64,000 nucleotides of DNA from IMG/VR virus record IMGVR_UViG_3300043827_000628, positions 27,350-91,349 of that record. The stretch is one strand, 5' to 3'. Positions within the stretch are counted from its first letter, which is position 1. Each line of letters opens with the position of its first letter. Shown here piece after piece: positions 1,220 to 60,464 of this stretch. The notes beneath the pieces were generated by a model, which was not told where the DNA came from, searched no databases, and saw nothing but the letters and a program-made list of their open reading frames with translations. Position numbers and translations under genes: made by a program. The stretch comes from a virus.

Positions 1220-1293
1220 AATAATTTTCTATAAAACTATCAAAATTGCCTATAATTAGAAGGCTATGTCAATAGCTTATAATACAAAAATCT

Positions 1294-1322
1294 TTGAATT
1301 TTGTCAAATGTTTTTATATAAT
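1294..1322 (+). promoter_or_regulatory. sigma70-like promoter, leaderless
   Basis: TTGAAT (1294-1299), a 17-bp spacer and TATAAT (1317-1322), followed after 7 nt by the ATG at 1330. Transcription from the expected position would begin at or next to the A of the start codon, giving a leaderless mRNA. Confidence 0.65.
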
Positions 1323-1578: not shown

Positions 1579-1997
1579 GGGCCAGACTTGGTTTCGATTT
1601 TAGGAATCGAAATTAAAATGCAAGTAGAGTTGAAGTGGACTCTTTAAACAACTTCAAAATACTTAACTGCCAAACCAGCTAAGTTAAAGGGCAGCTTCTC
1701 CTTGAGAGTTTCTCACAAGAAGAACTCCCTAATCGCAGCCTAAAACTCTGCGACCTGTTACCTACGACACATCTACTAGGATAATGGGTATTTAGATGTA
1801 TTAATTTAAATCCTTTTTATTTAATTTTTAAATTAATTATATTGGGTAGATTTGACCAAGGTTAGATCTATTATAAAATAAATAGCTATAGCCCGATTGC
1901 CTGTTCGACACTATAGCGAAAAAACGGAATAGGCTAAACTTGTAGTATTTTAATTTAAGTTCACTAAAAGACGGGGATTCAATCTCCCCCTGGTCCA
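1579..1997 (+). ncRNA. ssrA: transfer-messenger RNA (tmRNA)
   Basis: tmRNA rescues ribosomes stalled on broken mRNAs and tags the nascent peptide for proteolysis. The 5' end GGGCCAG pairs with CTGGTCC (1990-1996), forming a 7-bp acceptor stem with one G-U; the discriminator A is 1997 and CCA is not encoded. GACTTGGTTTCGA near the 5' end matches the tmRNA consensus. A T-arm GGGGA-TTCAATC-TCCCC sits at 1973-1989. The tag frame begins at GCC (1669), preceded by TTAACT as in cyanobacterial-type tmRNAs, and runs 24 codons (AKPAKLKG...NSLIAA) to TAA at 1741. That stop lies in the loop of a TCGCAG/CTGCGA hairpin, the usual helix 5. The tag ends in Ala-Ala, as ClpXP-type degrons do. About 419 nt is normal for the family. 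Confidence 0.93.
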
Positions 1998-40980: not shown

Positions 40981-42285
40981 ATGGTAAACATTAAATTACA
41001 TGGTATTCTAGGAGAAGAAATAGGTCAAGACTGGAATCTTGATGTTAATAGCGTTGCAGAAGCGTTTAGAGCTATAGAAGCAAACACTCAAAAATTAACT
41101 AAAACATTAATTAAACACGCAGAAAATAATTTAAAGTACGAAATTCTAATTAATAATAGACCTATTTGGGTTGCAAAGGCGCAAGATTTACCAGAGGCAA
41201 ATAAAGATGTAAAAAAAGAACATTTTGAAATGCTTGGTAATTCAGAATTTTGTATGAATTTCGGTCATAATCTAAAAAGTATAGATGTAGTACCTGTTTT
41301 GGAAGGCGCAGGTGGTGGTGGTGGTGGTGGGGGAAATAGTTGTTTTCCAGCTGGCACAAAAATTCTAACTCCTAATGGAGAAAAAAATATAGAAAATCTT
41401 AGCATCGGAGATGAAATTTTATCTTTTGATAAAGATAAAAATGTACAAAAAGATACAATTGAAGAAGTATTTTATCATAAAAATAATAAAATTTTAAAAA
41501 TAACTTTATGGGATGGACATGTTATTAGAGCAACTCCTAATCATTGGTTTCTAAACGAGTATAATAGATTTGCTCCAATTGAAAATTTTAAAGTTGGGGA
41601 TGTTCTTATACATAAAAGTGGAGATGTATTGCCAATAGAAAAAATTGAAGAAGATGGTTTTGAAGATGCGTATAATTTCCATGTTAAAAGTAATCATACT
41701 TATATTGCTAATAATATTTTAGTCCATAATGGAGGAGGTGGTAAAGGTGGAGGAGGTGGTAAAGGTGGAATGAGTAGCGCAAAAGGAATTTTTGCAATCT
41801 TTTTAGCGATTCTTTTAATTCCATTTGGCGGACCATTATTTGGGTTGACTTTGATGCAACTAATGCCAGCAATTTTAGGATTATTAGCTCTAGGAGTATC
41901 TATGCTTTTAATGAAACCACCACCAATGGTTAGTCCGCAAACTATCGCAAATCCTTCTGCAGATTTTGAAGCTTCTCCAGAATCTGGTGGAGAACCTTCT
42001 TACACATTTAATGGTCCAGTAAATACTGTTGGTGAAGGTGGACCAATTCCTATAGGATATGGAAGATTAATAATAGGAAGTCATCAAGTATTTAGCTCTT
42101 ATGATCAATTATACAGAATTCAGTCAAGAGAAAATAGATATGGATCTGATGGCAGACCACCAACAGATGCCGGAGCAGATAATTACCCAACAAAAAGCTT
42201 TTACTTTAATCATTATGGAAGTGCAATAGATATTCAAGATTTCCAAGGAAATTCTTTATCTCAATCTTCATTACAAGGCGCATAA
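40981..42285 (+). CDS. tail assembly protein I-like, with internal Hint domain
   Basis: A 434-residue protein. Residues 1-115 match lambda gpI's beta-grasp-like start (MVNIKLHGILGEEIGQDWNL, then AEAFRAIEANTQKL). A glycine run then leads to a 130-residue Hint domain (121-250), and after it a second glycine/lysine run, a long hydrophobic stretch (about 270-315) and a Pro/Gly-rich tail (GEGGPIPIGYGRLIIGS) typical of gpI. The Hint domain sits exactly in the flexible linker of the protein. Whether it splices, cleaves or does nothing is not visible; see the domain entry. Confidence 0.8.
   Translation: MVNIKLHGILGEEIGQDWNLDVNSVAEAFRAIEANTQKLTKTLIKHAENNLKYEILINNRPIWVAKAQDLPEANKDVKKEHFEMLGNSEFCMNFGHNLKSIDVVPVLEGAGGGGGGGGNSCFPAGTKILTPNGEKNIENLSIGDEILSFDKDKNVQKDTIEEVFYHKNNKILKITLWDGHVIRATPNHWFLNEYNRFAPIENFKVGDVLIHKSGDVLPIEKIEEDGFEDAYNFHVKSNHTYIANNILVHNGGGGKGGGGGKGGMSSAKGIFAIFLAILLIPFGGPLFGLTLMQLMPAILGLLALGVSMLLMKPPPMVSPQTIANPSADFEASPESGGEPSYTFNGPVNTVGEGGPIPIGYGRLIIGSHQVFSSYDQLYRIQSRENRYGSDGRPPTDAGADNYPTKSFYFNHYGSAIDIQDFQGNSLSQSSLQGA
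41341..41730 (+). other. Hint/bacterial intein-like domain in the I-like gene
   Basis: A 130-residue domain begins at Cys (CFPAGTKILTPNGEKNIENL) and ends ANNILVHN. Block B is RATPNHWF (T-x-x-H). There is no endonuclease insert. The penultimate His and last Asn are intact, but the +1 residue is Gly, whereas classical inteins need Cys, Ser or Thr. Family knowledge says bacterial intein-like (BIL) domains tolerate this and cleave or splice unusually. It is flanked on both sides by glycine-rich linkers. Confidence 0.8.
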
Positions 42286-50800: not shown

Positions 50801-50922
50801 TTAAAAATTATAATTCTTGGGTAAATCAAGGTCTAAAATTTGCAATAAAAATTATGGTTATAGATAATTCTGGTGATTCGATAGATCAAACTTTTATATT
50901 TCAAAATGATGAAAATTGTTAA
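47806..50922 (+). CDS. large tail-tip-associated protein
   Basis: A 1038-residue protein encoded directly behind the J-like gene (start and stop codons share one base). It looks beta-rich, with a fibronectin-III-like start (LPEASVNLINITDNSKGFEV, then IESYRIYLSNYAFY, then GIHYLTVFSKNNLGFESTG). A Cys cluster occurs late (NTDCVKTCCVEDTD, then YGKICGMNKYVFGS). No family is recognised. The position suggests a central fibre or a J-bound receptor-binding subunit. Its stop codon shares TTAA with the convergent tape-measure gene. Confidence 0.6.
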   Translation: MSQYPSKLPEASVNLINITDNSKGFEVVIKPIENIENIESYRIYLSNYAFYTEPNTNPNQFLIKEIPYSTKDEYFYYVPRNTGIHYLTVFSKNNLGFESTGVLFSEVIPVQNPINEVLLHNLNYYSDLILLSDNINYSGGMSNISVDNKKEITVYTPYAYLAWQLDTVAETTNDIKKNSPENNEYDFTKYFKDNSINFYIRVIPGLDQNSGILTDNTVLRNNSNDIYRITTACLTPKLSVNASDLQIQKFNLTKSGDIISEVEIKTPEIISENNRYFLFDYGINYDSYLINNTIHVEATDDSNTLTFNPEVQNTGDFLNELLTLTGSGIGPKSYVKISQPGHYNNYYVSIEAVDDDGNSSAGGNINIYDSQRYTNEKGYKLVKVNHNKISKNNVLKIFKNYYREGNNKIVFEIKDLLPVHVGLDSIIIFPKKYRENINLEEQTEYYDKYIFLRNLKNIDILNLNPNYKIESLDDQNTTHFKITCTLSTDSLLVNDNIFSIKLYYLNSLEAQALNFYTRFAGVSNEAVFNYLNTTDLVDKYVTLNKFVKDNKNYTSTIAASYQGLVYFFTPESYPYIAWPNEEYRNTYFNRDGARMLDFKDDGVASGPQFFDYFPLAQARINGQFPNENKYKTTYRCLDSYKYNATTNFVSFEPEDVPPSGVNNNPSYLGAYDPGNIGDLESPETVDFKYVKDDLKYFAAKNIYSVKLLSVGIQKEDAYAIVEFILDIPDAQDFIVQGISGTDTVLEKGVKEINGTNYHYFIAKFVSSCGVDADPILNGENIDVKNIVDSKKMISFVVYPTKFKIIEDPSDVPFFGDFYLLSNSINNKEFNLLKICPRTLLTNNTDCVKTCCVEDTDTINFRSEFKQFFIISKYVPNQTESNYPYGKICGMNKYVFGSRSWRYSAFDYTGSNITLYYKKPTDSINSLNLGILCHPEHNVGIHKILIYLKQINNIDSITWSSSDLIDSYTFEEVIKYYSIYLDIPDFDFSNRTSEIYEKIIKNYNSWVNQGLKFAIKIMVIDNSGDSIDQTFIFQNDENC

Positions 50923-53900
50923 CGGCCTAAATCTCTGCCCTTAGAGCCTTGATATAATACTCCACCTGGACGCTGTTCTTCTACTATTACTTTTAATATC
51001 TGTTGCCTTAATAATTCGGCTAATATCCTAGATCTTTCCATAGTCTTCTTGAACTTCTCTTGGTCATTCATATCATTTCCTTCGCTATCTTGACTTTCAT
51101 CTTTCTTATCTTGAGATGTTTGACCATTTTGATCAACATTAACGCTTATTGTTATATTATTTGTTACTCCGCCAGCTTGTGTTGTGTCGGTTACTGTAGC
51201 TTCAGTTTCAGTTTTATCTTTCATCTCTTTTGTTTGATCTTCTACAGTCCTATTTAATTGATCAAGAGATTTCAATAATTTAGTCATAGCGTCTACAAAT
51301 TGAGCTCTAGAGTTATCTTGATTATTCTGTTCTCCGCCTAAACCAATACTAGGCAAACTAGTTCCTACTGGACCACCTTCTGCAAATCCTTGGACTTGTC
51401 CTCTATTTAAACGATTGAAGAAAAGTTCACCCATTCTATCTACAACGTCTTTGCGTATAACATATTCTCCACCCATTAACATAGCTGGAACATCATCTTT
51501 AGTGGAAGTTCCTCCGTAAATCATTCCACCAGTAGCTCTACTTGCCCAACTTGGAGTAATACCTAATCTACTTCCTGTAGAGAACCAATTACTAAAAGGG
51601 ATTCCCGTAGAAGAACTAAATCCATAATTTGCTCCACCAAAATTACCAAATCCTCCAAAATATCTACTACCAAATGCAAAAGGAGAAAGAGCATTAGGAG
51701 TTCTAGGAAACTTAAATGATCCAAGTTGTCCAGTTGTAGAACCTGTAAATCCTAAATAATTTAAATAATTATTAAATCCTAATTGACCATAGCTAGATTT
51801 ACCCATAAAAGCCATTGGATCTGTACCTAATAATAATCTATTATAAGGTTGATTAGTATAAAAAGATGAAAATCTTGCTTGCAAGCCTTTTTCTAAATTT
51901 GTAACATTTTTTGTATCCATCAATGCTCCAACTGCTCTGTATAAATCTTGAGGCGCAAGTTCTTCTTGTTTTATTAAATCTGCTAAATTTTTTTGATATT
52001 CTTCTGCAAATTCTGGATCTGCAAAAGGATTAAAGTCTTGTTTTGTCACTTTTTGAGATGATGGTAGACCTCCTGGCTTATATGCTTTAGGTGGTTGCAT
52101 CATTGCTCTATTTGATGGTGGAATTCCTGGTTTTCCAGGATATCCTGGAAAACCATTTGGATATAAACGTTTTATAGCATCTGTTACAACTTCCCAAGGT
52201 TTTCCTACCGTTTCCCAAGGTTGAGGAAGATCAACTGGAATTTCTGGTATTGATAATGCTTGCGGAGCTCCGCGAGCATATCTACGAGGATTTTCATAAA
52301 GTCTTGATATTTGCGTTCTGGCAGGTAAACTAGTTCCTGCTGTAACAACTGGTGGATTAGTCCCTGCTATTTGAGGTGTAGAGATTGGAAATGCTGGCAT
52401 AGGCATAGTTGATCTTGATGGAAAAGGCATATTAACTACACCTTGCGGACTCTGCATCGCTTTCTTTGCTGCTTCTGGTGTCAAAAATCCAAGATCTACT
52501 TGTCTTTGCAATTCTGGGGGTAAACCAGCTATAGAAACTTGTGGCATGGCAGGAAATGTGCCTTTTGGACCACCACCAGTTGTAGCTATACCTTCTGGAT
52601 CTATACTTATAGGTAATGTAGATCTAGCTTGTGGAAGATAAGATCTAAGAGCTTTTGCAGTGCCTGCTACTTTAGTAGCATAAGCTCCTTCTGGCAACTT
52701 ACCAGCATAGCCTTGTCTCGCTAAAATATCAGCTCTTTTTGCAACATCAGTAACTCCTAGAGCTTCTTTGTATCTAGGCTTTTTCATGAATTGAATAAAA
52801 TCTTCGGTAAATTCATTTAAATCTTTATATTTTCTGTATACATTTGGACTTAACTCTCCTCTAGCTCTTTCATCTGCATTTGCTGGTAAAGTTATAGTAT
52901 CTCCTTTGTATCCTCCTCCAGCTTTAATTCCTGCTAAATTAAATCCAAATCTAGCTAATTCAGACATTCCATAATCACTTTCAAGTGCAAATTGAGCTAG
53001 AACAGCTTCTGGTGTAGTTCCAAGTTTCTGAGCTATAAGAAAAGCAATAGGATAATTTTGATCAACAAATGCTTGTTTTTTTACGTCTGCTCCAGTCCTA
53101 TATCCTTTAACTTTACCTCCAATTGCATATCTTCCAGCGGCAGCTTGACCAAATATTTGTTCGTATGGATTAGTTAATATTGGAGCGACATTACCTCTGG
53201 CATAGAATAATGGATCAACAGGTCTTGCAAACATCATAAAATAATCTTGAGCTGCATTTTGAGTATATGTTTTATAACCAGCAGGGGCACCCAAACCAAC
53301 ATTAAAAGCTAAACCTTGGTAAGTAGAAGATGGGGCTCCTCCCATCATTTGAAAACCGCCAGGGCCAAATCCTATTCCTCCTGCACCAGGTCCATACTGA
53401 GGTAATAATTGCATTTGTTTTGCGAATGGATCTCTAAACCCAGATAATTGACCCATTTCTACTTGTCTTTTTATTTCTTTTGTCTGTTCGTCTGTTAACC
53501 CAGGAATAGAAGTTTGCATACCGCTGTATTGACCTATAGAGCCCATTACAGTTTTACCAATGTCTTGAAAAAATCCTAAAAATGTATTTCCTATACTACC
53601 ACCACCCCCCCCACCCCCAAAAAGACTACCTAAACCTGAACCAAATTTTCCAACACTTGCCATTGAACCAAAAAGTCCCATTCCAACTCCTAATAATCCT
53701 CCAATAAATCCTTGTGTTACTTGACGATTATAAGCTGCCATTCTTTCAGAATTAATTCTATTCGCTTCTTCTTGAGCTTTCCTACGCATCTCTTCAACTT
53801 GACGCATTTGTTCATTATAGCTTGTTTTAAAATTACTTACTTGTTGCTGATAATTTTGCATTCCCATAAATCTTTCTGATCTTAATGCGTTCATAGGATT

Positions 53901-56900
53901 ATTTTCATCAGTTATAGCTCTTGTACTTAAAAGATCAGAGATATTAAATCTACCTGTTAGCGCTGGAACATTAGCTAATTCTTCCGGAGCATTTACTGTA
54001 GTTTTAAATGCTTCATCTGTAAATGGTCTAGTTAGTCTTTCTCCTTGAACTCCATAAAAATCATATTGATTTACAAGCAGACTGTTAATACTTCCACCTG
54101 TTGCATAACCTCTAATTCTGCCACCTTTAGACAAGATATTATCTCCACCGCCAGGGAAAGGGTAATATCCTTGTTCGGCCATCCATTGATCAAATAAATC
54201 AAGATTACCAAATATTCCTCCTGCAACTCCAAGCATTTTGACTCCTGTCTTTAATAAAGGACTACCAAATCTTGTAATCTTATCTTGATATCTCATCAGG
54301 CTTTTTAATAATGGATGTTGTGAAACTGGTATAGCTTTTGTTGAATCTCCTACTAATCTTGCATATGGTTTCGCAATTTTTGGTAATAATACCTCTGGTG
54401 ATGCCATTTCACTAGATTTAACGCCAAATTGTATATTTTCTCCTAAAGCTGCACGTACTTTACTAGGATCAAAGGGAGAGCTTGTATCATGTAAACCTTG
54501 ATAAGCACGAGCTCTTGCTTGCTGTAAAGGTTTAAGACGAACCCAGTCTGGAAGGTTTTTTGGAGGCTTAGCTCCCATGCCTCCAGCTGTTTTTGGATAA
54601 CTCAGACCTTTCTCATCATCCAAGATTGAATATTTTCCTTCAAGATATTTAAATTGACTCATTGTTAAGTTTTTGCCTTTAAATAATGCTGGAGTTTTAT
54701 CTTCTATACCAAAATTTCCATAAATTGGAGTCTGGGCAGGATTAACACCATAAAGTGCGGCTTGTCTTATACTACCTTGTTGAACACCTTTAAACATTGG
54801 TAAAACTCTAGATGGATTTGCTTCAGCTGCTCTCCCCCCAGCAGAAGATGTAATTGTACTACCATATTGTGAGCCTATTTTTACTCGAGGAGACGCCATC
54901 ATTCCTCCTAATGGTTCTCCTTTAACTGACACGCTAGGATCTGCTAACATAAATCCTCGAGCTACAGTATTTCCTGAATTAAATTGATTCCATGGTTGTC
55001 CATATTGATTAGCTGCCGATTGAATAAAACCGCTTATAGTTCTATCTGAAATATCATATAAAGTTTTTAGCCTAAATCCACCAGCTAAAGTCCCAGGTAT
55101 ATTAGCTTTAATTCCACCTTGCAATCTTGTTATGCCATATAGTTGTTGATTTAGTTGTTTATTCATACTTAATGGCAATGATTCTGCGGTGACTTTTGCT
55201 CCAGTAGAATATCCTTTTATCATTCCGCCCTGATTAAGCATATTTAGAGCATTTATACCATATTTATTAACAGCGCTTTTTCTTAATACATATTCGCCAT
55301 CTGTAAGCATAGCTGGAACGTCATCTTTTACTCCACTCCCGCCATCTACATAACCGCCACCACTATATTTTTTAATTAATCCTCCTTTAGCTTTGCCACC
55401 GCCAAATATACTATTAAATATACCACCTAATAATCCTCCACTATTATTTGCTGTGCCACCAAATCCGCCCCCACCAGTTAATCCTCCAAGAAGACTACGC
55501 ATACCGATGCTAAATTGTTCTTTAATTATCTGTTGTGAAATGCTAAGTGCCATGTCTCTAAATGCATCTTCAGCAGTTTTTGTTCCATCAAGAAATGCAC
55601 CAAATGCATCTTCAAAACCAGTTTGCATATTTTCAGCAAGATTAGCAAAAGATTCATTAATTTTTCTAGCAGTTGTTTGGGCATTATCGCCAAATCTATC
55701 AAAGAAAGATGTTACAGGTTGAAACCCTTCTTGAAGCTTGCCCTGTTTTAATAAATCATTAAAATAATTTTGTCTTGCCTCAGCTCTTTCACTAGAAAAC
55801 ATTTTAGATGCATTTGTTTGAAAAGTTATAGCATCAGATCTTAATTTAAGCTCTGCAAAAGCATCATTAACGCTCATAGTTTTATCTTTTACTTTATTGA
55901 CAATCTCTGCGTAACTTTTTGTAAACTCTTCTAATTGTTTCATTCCTGTAGATGTATTACCTACTTGATAATATAAATCTGTATATTGTTTGGTAAAATC
56001 TTGTTCAAAACCTTTGCTAACACCAGCTTGAAGACTCTGATTAACATCTGTAAATCTAACTCTTTCTAAATCTCTTGGACTAATTGGTACATTTCCTGTT
56101 CTTCCAAGTAGTCCAGATAAACCTTCCATAGTAGTGATATTTCTTGTTGCAGCAATTTGATTAATTTTGTTTTGTAAATTCTCATATTCTATTCTTCTAT
56201 TTTCCATAGCTATAAAGGCTTCTATGACTGGGGTAAGATCTCTTTTTCCTTCTTCTATTAAGGCTGTTAGAGCTTCTGCTTGATCTTTTGGTAAACCAAG
56301 AGTATTTATTCCATCGCTAATGCTAGCAATTCCTTGTTTAGCATTTTCTGCAGCATTTTGAATCTTTCTAGCATCTTCTTGAGTCAATTGTTTTTCAGTT
56401 ATAGCTTCATAATATGTTTCTAAAGATTTAGCTTGCTGATCTACCAAATTTTGAAATCTTATTTTTTGTTCTTTATCTAGTTCTCTGAATGTTTTATCTC
56501 CAGTTAAAAATCCAAATCTATCCATTAATTCTGCTCTATCCATTCCTCCTTTTAAAAATGCTCCTTTACTTTCAGCAATGTTTAAAGTCCCTCTACTTTC
56601 AGCAAGAGCTAAATTGATTCTTTCTCTTAATTCTGCTGTATTACCTAATTGAACATATAAATTTTTTACTTCTTCCGCTGTCTTTGGAGATACCATAGCT
56701 ATTTGGTTCAAACCGTCAACAATATCACTATTAGCTTTTTGTATTAATCTAACTTTAGTTTCTGTAGATAAATCTGGTCTTTCTTCTAAAGTATTTAAAG
56801 TTTCTAAAGATGTATTTAATGTTTGTGCACCAACAGTTAAATTATTAAAATTCTCTTTTGCTATTTCAATTTCTTTTGCAACTTCTGGCATTATATCTTT

Positions 56901-59900
56901 AAGTTCTGATATAACATTGTAGACTGCTAATCCTCCAGCCGCAACTCCTGCAGCTCCAATAGTCATAGGTCCACCGCCTAATGCTGCTGCCGTTCCAACT
57001 GCGCCAAGAGTACCAAATGCGCCAGTAACACCAGCTCTTGTTGCTCTTCCACCTCTACTAACGTCATCTCCTACGTATTGACTAATAATTCCACCAATAA
57101 TAGGCGCTGCAATTGTTGCGGCTGCTCCATATCTAGAACCAAATCTTCCTATAGCACCGCCAACCCCACCTCTTCGATTAAAATCTACTCTTCTTTCTAA
57201 TGCTGTACTACCAACGCCTAAAATTGGACCTTCTCTAGAAGCTTGTTGGCGATAATTTGCTAAATTAACTGTTGCACTCTCTAGTTGTTTTCTAGCGTTA
57301 GAAATAGCTTGTTCATCATTTGCAGAACTTCTTTCAATATTTTTTAAATTATTTAAAGCTTTATTTCTCTCTCTTAATAGATCTTTATATTTAATTTGTT
57401 CAATTCTTGTTTGTTGTAATGTTGCAGCTTGCTCTTCTGTTCTACGTTGGCCAAGCAATAAAAGCATTAATGAAGTTGGATCAAAACCTCCTAAACCAAC
57501 TCCAGCAAAATTAGGTATAAATCCATTTGTCATCATTCCTTGAATTTTTTTAGAGTTTTGTATAGCATTACTAATTCCTTCTGGATGGTCTCTCATTACT
57601 GCTGCAAAATTTGGTTGAGTTTTTCCATCTCTTACATAGAGTCCAAGACCCTCTTTATAATCTAAAGTTGGTTTTCCACCAAGACTTTTTTCTGTACTAA
57701 AAGCTTTATCTAATGGTGAAAAATTAGGAATAAAACCTAATGCTTTTTTAGTTTTAGCCTGAGATTTTAATGGATATCCTTGATTAGAAGCAATTTTGTT
57801 CGCCATAGATTGAGCCTGATCAGGATTTAGAGCGTTTTTTACTTCTCCAAATTTAAATTTATTTAAAACTTCTGCGCCTTTAAAAGTTTTAGCAATTCTA
57901 TTTAATTCATCTTTTGTTAAATCTAATGGCGCATTAGGATCTTCAACTGCACTGAAAATTGCAGATTTTAATCCTGCTTCAAAAACGCTTCCTATTGCAG
58001 CTTCAATAGTAGATCTATTAAAATTTGAATCTACATAATTCTTAAATTGACCACTTCTAACTAAATTTTCTGGATTTAAAGCTGCATTATTAATGAATGT
58101 ATATACTGCGCCTTTTAATTTTTTCTCAATATCAGTATATAGTTCTGCTCCTAAACCACCTTTTCCACCTGGAAAACCAAAAGTTGAAAATATAAATTCT
58201 GGATTTGGATCTCCTCTCTTTCCCATATATTTATCTGCTGTTGCTTTTGTAGATCCTAAACCAGTTCCTCCAAAAGATGGATAAACAAGTACCGCACCAG
58301 TCTGGTTAATTTCATCTTTTGATAAAACTCCTTTACCTAAACCAAGTGCTCTAGCCTCTGTTTGAGTTTTATAATAACTCAAAGCGTTATCTTTTACGCT
58401 ATTTTTTAAAAAAGATCCCCCTTCAGATGTTCCGCCGATTAAATACTGCTTAAATGGACTATTTTTTTTATTTAATTCATCGTAAATATTTTTAGAAATT
58501 GGGATATATCCTCTTTCAACCATTGCATCATAAGAAGCAAAATTAGGAATAAACCCTCTATTTGCATAAGGATCTATACCATATCTACCTTTAAATTTTT
58601 GTTTATATGCTTTACCTGCTTCACTATTCGCTGGTGGCATTATTCCTGGTTGAGAAAGACCAGAAAATTTTTTAACAGTTTCCGCATCATTATATGTGAC
58701 TCTACCATAATTTGGTATATTCATAGAGCGAACTTCTCCTGGCATATACCCACCAGATATTGCTCCCATTATTTCTTTATTTGCATTAAAATTAGGTATA
58801 AAACCTCGACTTTTATTCCTTGTTGTTGCTGGGGCAGTAATAACACCTTTTTCTGTAGAAACGACTCCACGAGTAACAAGACCTTTAGTTAATGAAGCAG
58901 CAATTGCGTTAGATTGTTGTCTTGCCGCAGATTGAGCTTGAATAACAGTTAGTATATCTTTTTCAACTTGCAATAATGAAATCTGTTTGTTAACAATATT
59001 TTGTACTAATTGTGGATTTTGAGTTAAAATACTATTTATCCTTTCTTGAATTTTAGCTTGTTCTTGACCAGCTTTACCAAGTCCTAAAAATGTTTTTGTT
59101 GCGTCTGCAGTAAATTTAGTTAAATTAATAAATATTTTTGTAAAAACTGCGCCAAGCAATAATAATCCAGGACCTACTATAAAATCACCAATACCTTCTA
59201 AAATACCTTTTCCAATTTTATTTCCTAAACCACTTCCTCCTTTAAAATCAAAACTTTCTAAAACTCCATTTAAAGTACCGAGAACCCTTTCGATTGCTGG
59301 AGCTAATGTCAATGATCCAATATCGCTTCCAGCTTTTGTTAAATTTGCTATAGTCTTATTAATTAATGCAGATAAAGTTTTATTTAATTCTTCATTTCTT
59401 TTTATAGCTTCATCTGTAGCACCGCTAGATATCTTTAAAGCGTTACCATATACAGAATATTCCCTACTTAAATCTCCTAAAGCTGCTTTTAAAACGTTTA
59501 TTTGGAAGACGCCGCCGACCAACTCTGCAATTTGAGCTTTTTGAGCCGCTCCTAATTGATCGAATTTAGTAGCAAGACCGGTTAAAATTTGAATAGCTGG
59601 AGCTGTATTTCCTTGTAAATCTCTAACAGCAATACCTAAACCTTCTAATTGATCTAACACATCAGTTCTTTGGACTCTAGTGAAAATAGTTTTTAATGAG
59701 TTGCCGATAACTGCTCCACCTCGCGCGGTAGTTTGATTAACACTAGCAACAATAGCTAATAATTGATCGAAACTGACTCCTACATCTTGCGCTGAACTAC
59801 CAACTCGTTTTAAGGCTTCAGCAAGATCTGCAGAACTAACTGCAAATGCAGCATCAACGCTCGCTAATTTATTTACGATTTGAGTAGAATCTAAAGCTGA

Positions 59901-60464
59901 ATTATTAAAAGAATTTATTGAAGCAGTTAAAGCTTCTACGCTAGAAGCAGCATCAAGACCAGAAAGACGAGCTAAAATTAATGCATCACTTGTTCTCTTT
60001 AAAGTTTGTTCAAGACTTAAACCTTGACGAGCTAATTCTCCGGCTGCAGTAGCTACTGTTGAAAATGCTTGACCACTATTTTTTGCTATTTCAAAAAGTC
60101 GATTTCCAAACTGATCGAGACTTTTTGCGCTAACGCCTAAAATAACATTAATATCTGCTAAAGATTTCTGTACTTCTATTGTACTTCCAATTAAAGTTAT
60201 AAAAGCTCTTTGAACATTATATATTGCTCCTGCAGAGGCACCGAATGCAATAACACGGGCGTTGGATGCATCTAACGATTTTTGGAACTCATTTGCTGCT
60301 CCCGTAATTCTACCTAAAGGTTGAGTAAAAGCTCTAGAATTTATTCCTTGTCCTAAATTAAATCCTCTGCTTTCTAATCTTTTTAAAGCTGCAGATACTT
60401 CCCTTTCCATTTGGGAAGTATTAACTGATAGATTAATCTGCGCCTCACCTATATTTTGAGCCAT
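50919..60464 (-). CDS. tape measure protein with glucosaminidase domain
   Basis: A 3181-residue tape measure, the largest gene here. Residues about 90-400 form the TP901-type core (GASAGAIYNVQRAFITLIG, then LADINVILGVSAKSLDQFG, then ARGGAVIGNSLKTIFTRVQR). Hydrophobic segments follow at about 430 and 1110-1190. A FlgJ-type glucosaminidase lies at about 2455-2610 (LGTTPEAVLAQFALESDYGM, then ARFGFNLAGIKA), likely digesting cell wall during DNA injection. Four GFIPNF peptides lie at about 555, 638, 912 and 982. A DDVPAML-x-x-GEYV unit occurs twice (about 1715 and 2993). A GGAAAAAGG-type ribosome site precedes the ATG. Confidence 0.92.
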   Translation of the reverse strand: MAQNIGEAQINLSVNTSQMEREVSAALKRLESRGFNLGQGINSRAFTQPLGRITGAANEFQKSLDASNARVIAFGASAGAIYNVQRAFITLIGSTIEVQKSLADINVILGVSAKSLDQFGNRLFEIAKNSGQAFSTVATAAGELARQGLSLEQTLKRTSDALILARLSGLDAASSVEALTASINSFNNSALDSTQIVNKLASVDAAFAVSSADLAEALKRVGSSAQDVGVSFDQLLAIVASVNQTTARGGAVIGNSLKTIFTRVQRTDVLDQLEGLGIAVRDLQGNTAPAIQILTGLATKFDQLGAAQKAQIAELVGGVFQINVLKAALGDLSREYSVYGNALKISSGATDEAIKRNEELNKTLSALINKTIANLTKAGSDIGSLTLAPAIERVLGTLNGVLESFDFKGGSGLGNKIGKGILEGIGDFIVGPGLLLLGAVFTKIFINLTKFTADATKTFLGLGKAGQEQAKIQERINSILTQNPQLVQNIVNKQISLLQVEKDILTVIQAQSAARQQSNAIAASLTKGLVTRGVVSTEKGVITAPATTRNKSRGFIPNFNANKEIMGAISGGYMPGEVRSMNIPNYGRVTYNDAETVKKFSGLSQPGIMPPANSEAGKAYKQKFKGRYGIDPYANRGFIPNFASYDAMVERGYIPISKNIYDELNKKNSPFKQYLIGGTSEGGSFLKNSVKDNALSYYKTQTEARALGLGKGVLSKDEINQTGAVLVYPSFGGTGLGSTKATADKYMGKRGDPNPEFIFSTFGFPGGKGGLGAELYTDIEKKLKGAVYTFINNAALNPENLVRSGQFKNYVDSNFNRSTIEAAIGSVFEAGLKSAIFSAVEDPNAPLDLTKDELNRIAKTFKGAEVLNKFKFGEVKNALNPDQAQSMANKIASNQGYPLKSQAKTKKALGFIPNFSPLDKAFSTEKSLGGKPTLDYKEGLGLYVRDGKTQPNFAAVMRDHPEGISNAIQNSKKIQGMMTNGFIPNFAGVGLGGFDPTSLMLLLLGQRRTEEQAATLQQTRIEQIKYKDLLRERNKALNNLKNIERSSANDEQAISNARKQLESATVNLANYRQQASREGPILGVGSTALERRVDFNRRGGVGGAIGRFGSRYGAAATIAAPIIGGIISQYVGDDVSRGGRATRAGVTGAFGTLGAVGTAAALGGGPMTIGAAGVAAGGLAVYNVISELKDIMPEVAKEIEIAKENFNNLTVGAQTLNTSLETLNTLEERPDLSTETKVRLIQKANSDIVDGLNQIAMVSPKTAEEVKNLYVQLGNTAELRERINLALAESRGTLNIAESKGAFLKGGMDRAELMDRFGFLTGDKTFRELDKEQKIRFQNLVDQQAKSLETYYEAITEKQLTQEDARKIQNAAENAKQGIASISDGINTLGLPKDQAEALTALIEEGKRDLTPVIEAFIAMENRRIEYENLQNKINQIAATRNITTMEGLSGLLGRTGNVPISPRDLERVRFTDVNQSLQAGVSKGFEQDFTKQYTDLYYQVGNTSTGMKQLEEFTKSYAEIVNKVKDKTMSVNDAFAELKLRSDAITFQTNASKMFSSERAEARQNYFNDLLKQGKLQEGFQPVTSFFDRFGDNAQTTARKINESFANLAENMQTGFEDAFGAFLDGTKTAEDAFRDMALSISQQIIKEQFSIGMRSLLGGLTGGGGFGGTANNSGGLLGGIFNSIFGGGKAKGGLIKKYSGGGYVDGGSGVKDDVPAMLTDGEYVLRKSAVNKYGINALNMLNQGGMIKGYSTGAKVTAESLPLSMNKQLNQQLYGITRLQGGIKANIPGTLAGGFRLKTLYDISDRTISGFIQSAANQYGQPWNQFNSGNTVARGFMLADPSVSVKGEPLGGMMASPRVKIGSQYGSTITSSAGGRAAEANPSRVLPMFKGVQQGSIRQAALYGVNPAQTPIYGNFGIEDKTPALFKGKNLTMSQFKYLEGKYSILDDEKGLSYPKTAGGMGAKPPKNLPDWVRLKPLQQARARAYQGLHDTSSPFDPSKVRAALGENIQFGVKSSEMASPEVLLPKIAKPYARLVGDSTKAIPVSQHPLLKSLMRYQDKITRFGSPLLKTGVKMLGVAGGIFGNLDLFDQWMAEQGYYPFPGGGDNILSKGGRIRGYATGGSINSLLVNQYDFYGVQGERLTRPFTDEAFKTTVNAPEELANVPALTGRFNISDLLSTRAITDENNPMNALRSERFMGMQNYQQQVSNFKTSYNEQMRQVEEMRRKAQEEANRINSERMAAYNRQVTQGFIGGLLGVGMGLFGSMASVGKFGSGLGSLFGGGGGGGSIGNTFLGFFQDIGKTVMGSIGQYSGMQTSIPGLTDEQTKEIKRQVEMGQLSGFRDPFAKQMQLLPQYGPGAGGIGFGPGGFQMMGGAPSSTYQGLAFNVGLGAPAGYKTYTQNAAQDYFMMFARPVDPLFYARGNVAPILTNPYEQIFGQAAAGRYAIGGKVKGYRTGADVKKQAFVDQNYPIAFLIAQKLGTTPEAVLAQFALESDYGMSELARFGFNLAGIKAGGGYKGDTITLPANADERARGELSPNVYRKYKDLNEFTEDFIQFMKKPRYKEALGVTDVAKRADILARQGYAGKLPEGAYATKVAGTAKALRSYLPQARSTLPISIDPEGIATTGGGPKGTFPAMPQVSIAGLPPELQRQVDLGFLTPEAAKKAMQSPQGVVNMPFPSRSTMPMPAFPISTPQIAGTNPPVVTAGTSLPARTQISRLYENPRRYARGAPQALSIPEIPVDLPQPWETVGKPWEVVTDAIKRLYPNGFPGYPGKPGIPPSNRAMMQPPKAYKPGGLPSSQKVTKQDFNPFADPEFAEEYQKNLADLIKQEELAPQDLYRAVGALMDTKNVTNLEKGLQARFSSFYTNQPYNRLLLGTDPMAFMGKSSYGQLGFNNYLNYLGFTGSTTGQLGSFKFPRTPNALSPFAFGSRYFGGFGNFGGANYGFSSSTGIPFSNWFSTGSRLGITPSWASRATGGMIYGGTSTKDDVPAMLMGGEYVIRKDVVDRMGELFFNRLNRGQVQGFAEGGPVGTSLPSIGLGGEQNNQDNSRAQFVDAMTKLLKSLDQLNRTVEDQTKEMKDKTETEATVTDTTQAGGVTNNITISVNVDQNGQTSQDKKDESQDSEGNDMNDQEKFKKTMERSRILAELLRQQILKVIVEEQRPGGVLYQGSKGRDLGR

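Follow-up and report, generated by a model that had tools for sequence, protein, structure and literature searches.

A phage tmRNA with a long basic tag of conserved front and, beside it, a probable new structured RNA

Introduction

The peptide tags of tmRNA are usually viewed as degradation labels whose end is the important part. In addition to SmpB, tmRNA needs host AlaRS, EF-Tu, RNase P and the CCA-adding enzyme. Genes for tmRNA are also carried by phages. Among isolated phages, they have been described in the mycobacteriophages Bxz1, Cali and Wildcat and in Bacillus phage G (PMC4131195), and huge phages carry tmRNA, in some cases together with SmpB (PMC7162821). A preliminary, sequence-only reading of the locus described here had stated that a few phages carry ssrA. 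Phages do carry it, but the number was understated, given that a 2021 survey recorded tmRNA in 402 of 18,146 phage genomes (PMC9004378). The commonest tag length in the current tmRNA database is 10 amino acids (PMC11915505).

Here, we analyze a tmRNA gene in a DNA stretch of 64,000 nucleotides (the window), which corresponds to positions 27350-91349 of a virus record, an uncultured metagenome contig that is linear and 91,349 bases long. We describe the gene, its unusual tag and a second RNA located just upstream on the opposite strand, and weigh what the tag might do for the phage.

Results and discussion

The plus strand of the window contains a complete tmRNA (ssrA) of the one-piece form. 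The Rfam covariance model for tmRNA, RF00023, matches positions 1579-1998 over its full length (model positions 1-374) with 101 bits, against a gathering score of 47 bits, and an E-value of 2.7e-38. The mature form without its CCA tail spans 1579-1997, and the gene lacks the tail, with AGT directly after TCCA. The complete acceptor stem, the T arm and the resume codon GCC at 1669 that the sequence-only reading had identified are confirmed at exactly these coordinates by the Rfam match and by direct reading of the sequence. ARAGORN, a program named in that reading, gave a divided answer. It makes no tmRNA call on the window copy but succeeds in 52 of 55 related loci, among them that of L103, a close relative whose tag frame is the same, and the miss on the window copy is therefore a matter of sensitivity. 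The Rfam scan found no glutamine riboswitch or any other riboswitch.

The structure derived from the window forms in 86.5% of cells across 53 phage homologues, and both partners vary in 38 pairs. These pairing and covariation values exceed those of all 500 shuffles, and sliding the partners by one to three columns reduces pairing to 32-50%. Thus, the E-value and the covariation together exclude a chance match. The 5' strand of the acceptor stem (1579-1585) pairs with 1990-1996 and contains the G3-U70 wobble of alanine identity; six acceptor cells are unpaired at G3-U70, all in relatives whose sequences were trimmed one base too short for the alignment. The window copy pairs GGGCCAG with CUGGUCC, and the compensatory variants in the alignment comprise this pair, GGGCCCG/CGGGUCC and GGGCGCG/CGCGUCC. 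The most clearly supported elements are the T arm, helix 5 and the pseudoknot PK4. The T arm (GGGGA-UUCAAUC-UCCCC, 1973-1989) is 98.3% paired and covaries in all five pairs. Helix 5 (1733-1753; stem 1733-1738/1748-1753) is paired in 100% of cells with three covarying pairs, and it encloses the stop codon, as had been predicted, with TAA in the apical loop and not in the stem. PK4 (1885-1934; 1885-1891/1911-1917 and 1899-1906/1927-1934) is 92-97% paired with compensatory changes in nine sequences, namely the window and eight other aligned sequences, and is deleted in most relatives with tmRNAs of 386-390 nt. Covariation among the homologues also supports pseudoknot PK1 at 1626-1656 (1626-1630/1639-1643 and 1631-1636/1651-1656). 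In the PK2 region, one of the pairings is resolved and a stem at 1769-1799 (1769-1775/1793-1799) is 100% paired; the PK3 region reads as a hairpin.

The tmRNA loci of this group are mosaic, in that exchange of the tRNA-like ends and of the PK2-PK4 part has proceeded separately from the tag half. L158 and L119, for example, are 99% identical in the tag, 49% in PK2/3 and 29% in PK4. In the mosaic loci L117, L152, L158, L187 and others, both acceptor ends change together.

A putative sigma-70-type promoter of the tmRNA, TTGTCA-17-TATAAT, lies at 1518-1546 on the plus strand with 11 of 12 consensus matches. Its -10 element overlaps the stop codon of a small plus-strand ORF of 71 amino acids (1330-1545), which is located between the two RNAs. 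In this AT-rich region, promoter matches are as frequent as expected (6 found, 6.4 expected) and single matches are non-significant, so that the case for the promoter rests on its position and recurrence: many relatives contain TATAAT with TTG[C/T]CA at the same or a similar distance from the tmRNA.

The tag frame extends from the resume codon to TAA at 1741-1743 (1669-1743, plus strand; AKPAKLKGSFSLRVSHKKNSLIAA). Its product was described in the sequence-only reading as a long, basic tag of 24 residues, and it is indeed both: the 24 amino acids include six K/R and no D/E, and the length exceeds the commonest one of 10 (PMC11915505). The tag start, written as a degenerate DNA pattern (AAYTGCNAARNCNGCNAARTWNAARGG), matches 76 viral contigs, 73 of which encode exactly 24 residues; the matches in L162, L171 and L182 were rejected as chance. 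Five more relatives outside the pattern (L101, L313, L315, L321 and L323) also have 24-codon tags, and the frame is free of indels in the 73 contigs and in these five. Other long tags, of approximately 26-35 residues, occur in phages of the same polymerase group that are more distantly related. Examples from these relatives (L085 1501-1898, L084, L086, L087 and L090) are ANDNVDMAPSVAEADEILARFGFQEAALAA and the very basic AKNRVRALGLKNRLAAKRFGFKSRKLALAA, the start of which is a guess.

Comparison with the tmRNAs of related phages thus reveals a 24-codon frame in about 75 phage contigs, and this frame is under purifying selection. The 53 distinct tag sequences encode 27 distinct peptides, and variation at their third codon positions is double that at the first two. 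For the whole tag, the large clade has a pN/pS of 0.20 (bootstrap interval 0.04-0.49); the two incorrect frames give 2.3 and 1.0. Residues 1-16 (1669-1716, plus strand) exhibit a pN/pS of 0.065 in each clade. For residues 17-24, the value is 0.56 in the large clade and 1.3 in the window clade, the latter from only six sequences. Variation inside residues 17-24 is confined to residues 17-21, and the final residues are fixed by clade as IAA (window clade) or SVA (sister clade), with SVV as a single exception. The tag can be divided into two modules, a 16-residue front that is basic and conserved, AKxAKxKGx[FIL]S[LAT]R[VA]S, and a short hydrophobic end, which are joined by a variable linker. These substitution patterns indicate that the peptide, and not the RNA alone, is under selection and that the front is its most constrained part. 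Such constraint argues that the peptide matters and leaves aside what it does, although conservation of residues 1-16 would fit an extra recognition function, and the tag may retarget rescued peptides, as the sequence-only reading had suggested.

A second RNA of approximately 320 nt, which contains pseudoknots, is encoded on the minus strand at about 1272-953, between the ORF at 416-931 and the small ORF at 1330-1545; its start is placed by the promoter and its 3' end is approximate. The stretch is conserved in more than 35 phage contigs, and its motif occurs in 53 viral contigs, the majority of them with the tmRNA as well. The stretch outperforms shuffled sequences in folding on both strands (z of -4.1 for plus and -2.3 for minus). 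However, an 8-bp hairpin with six covarying pairs is complete only on the minus strand, where G-U pairs stand in place of A-C on the plus strand, and the minus-strand sense of the RNA follows from this hairpin. The structure comprises ten helices, two of which are pseudoknots, with 95.6% of cells paired and covariation in 24 of 56 pairs, values that no shuffle matches but that are somewhat favorable to the structure because its sources were a single member and helices identified on the same sequences. The putative promoter, TTGACA-17-TATTAT (1279-1307, minus strand), has 11 of 12 consensus matches, and all 44 distinct homologues have the -35 TTGACA and the 17-nt spacer. No Rfam family matches the second RNA at gathering, and only chance-level matches appear up to an E-value of 5. 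BLAST searches retrieved nothing for the second RNA among phages, nothing for either RNA among plasmids and no nucleotide similarity to the tmRNA among 50,697 phage records. The second RNA is probably a new structured RNA, and its strong covariation and conserved promoter make it a good candidate for a new RNA class.

What does the phage gain from its own label on rescued peptides? The locus makes this question testable. We consider it likely, from the conservation and completeness of the gene, that the tmRNA is a working one that the phages maintain, and we infer its transcription, its charging and its part in rescue and tagging. Its own sigma-70-type promoter would drive its transcription, and host enzymes would trim it and add the CCA tail, with host AlaRS charging it with alanine via G3-U70. 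Host SmpB would then deliver the phage tmRNA to ribosomes stalled on broken mRNAs, which are expected to be plentiful if infection destroys host mRNA. The stalled ribosomes would switch to GCC at 1669, add alanine and the 24-residue tag and terminate at TAA. In its simplest role, the tmRNA would make ribosomes available again for phage translation and mark the peptides that they had abandoned. The least certain step concerns the front module, on which a host protease or its adaptor might dock; we offer this assignment tentatively, as somewhat less probable than its absence. Bolder still, and in our judgment unlikely, is the combination of both RNAs into a phage translation-takeover module, in which a tmRNA with a phage-evolved 16-residue front would act with a pseudoknotted RNA of a new class, transcribed immediately upstream on the other strand. 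The same low estimate covers, jointly with that module, a front peptide that would dock to a host protease, an adaptor or the ribosome.

Of the alternatives to this reading, the most probable concerns the fate of the product: the tag would slow or redirect degradation, so that tagged peptides survive or reach another protease. Redirection has a precedent in Mesoplasma florum, where a long tag is read by a different protease, Lon, and variants of the E. coli tag with altered last three residues serve as tuned degradation tags (PMC9382460). The sister clade, with SVA in place of a final AA, could belong here. The window copy ends in LIAA, which resembles the end of ordinary proteolysis tags and therefore counts against the escape from host proteases that the sequence-only reading had suggested; for this copy, the suggestion finds no support. 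On balance, we regard slowed or redirected degradation as a minority possibility.

A less probable alternative makes the RNA itself the effector. As an SmpB decoy, it would mainly poison or titrate the host system, and the tag would be incidental. Such a role has been proposed for the tmRNA of mycobacteriophage DS6A, which consists of the tRNA-like domain only (PMC4131195, PMC11915505). As the sequence-only reading had recommended, we searched for SmpB; with 10 bacterial positive controls scoring, none was found in the record itself (a 91-kb linear piece, beyond which the gene could lie) or in 27 relatives. Host SmpB is therefore expected to be the partner, and the phage tmRNA, if expressed, would compete for it. 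However, the full mRNA-like domain is retained and selection acts on the peptide and not on the RNA alone, which makes a pure decoy improbable.

Recent capture of a host ssrA, as a passenger or an integration relic without a phage-specific role, is more improbable again. Prophages often integrate at ssrA and can acquire it (PMC9004378), and an identical host tmRNA had been named in the sequence-only reading as a sign of such an event. The tag pattern has no match in a one-per-species genome collection of 84,980 bacterial and archaeal species, searched in contigs of at least 3 kb, in contrast to its 76 viral contigs, 73 with the intact 24-codon frame; the pattern demands exact residues, and a host tag that differs at a few positions would escape it. 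Purifying selection on the tag and long divergence within phages also oppose capture, which on these comparisons appears largely refuted already. Among the matches listed when genome contigs were scanned with the DNA polymerase, the search for a host produced a single relevant hit, a contig of a Flavobacteriaceae MAG with 49% identity. Two distinct TerL genes of the phage type studied here occur in the bin of this MAG, so that mis-binning is possible. Furthermore, parsed Bacteroidota tags have 9-15 amino acids, unlike the phage tag, and TTGACA/TATAAT promoters misfit the Bacteroidota consensus. For these three reasons, Bacteroidota is not named as the host.

The gene content of the record agrees with its description as phage-encoded in the sequence-only reading. 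The record encodes a terminase large subunit (TerL), virion and tail genes, a UvsX-like recombinase, DnaB, ThyX, ribonucleotide reductase and a DnaE-type (phage-type) DNA polymerase. The polymerase has 140 relatives in IMG/VR, of which the best 80 were retained for comparison, and its matches in isolated phages are distant only (<60%). A tmRNA above the Rfam threshold is present in 23 of 50 related virus records and, among the 11 that measure 90 kb or more, in 8, and the neighborhood nrdA-nrdB-orf112-orf171 is kept around it. The notion that the locus is mis-binned bacterial DNA, for which the origin of the record as an uncultured metagenome contig could be cited, is refuted in practice by the TerL, tail and virion genes, phage-type polymerase and UvsX-like recombinase that share the record with the tmRNA and by the recurrence of the tmRNA locus in dozens of virus contigs.

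Other parts of the record and its relatives have features of their own. The tail assembly protein at 40981-42285 of the window is apparently interrupted by an intein, with a Hint domain at approximately residues 120-250 between two tail-protein segments. A 3181-amino-acid ORF occupies 50919-60464 of the window on the minus strand, in DNA with a local G+C content of 33-37%, above that of the rest of the window. In L003 (1609-8638, minus strand), upstream of the window, lie three adjoining ORFs of 774-784 amino acids; the two that were searched match the same tail-fiber/virion families.

Comparison with known systems

The phage tmRNA shares with the bacterial one-piece tmRNA (RF00023) the G3-U70 acceptor, T arm, H2, PK1, tag frame, helix 5 with the stop codon and downstream pseudoknots. 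It differs in that its tag is basic and has 24 amino acids, whereas the commonest length elsewhere is 10 (PMC11915505), and in that this tag is conserved in its front and not at its end alone. In addition, most of the sister clade has lost PK4, and no SmpB was found in the phage. As a phage-borne ssrA, the gene resembles those of Bxz1, Cali, Wildcat and phage G. Like the tmRNA of Melnitz and SAR11 phages, it is an aquatic phage tmRNA common to a phage group, but the latter are permuted two-piece tmRNAs with a glutamine riboswitch (PMC9004378), whereas the window tmRNA is of the one-piece form. The tag of M. florum is also longer than usual; it is bacterial, ends in NYAFA, is read by Lon (PMC9382460) and is unrelated in sequence to the phage tag. 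Given that phage tmRNAs are already known, what is new at this locus is a phage-only tag of fixed 24-residue length, its constrained front and the adjacent RNA: a large phage group keeps this tag and constrains its first 16 residues while the linker before the end drifts.
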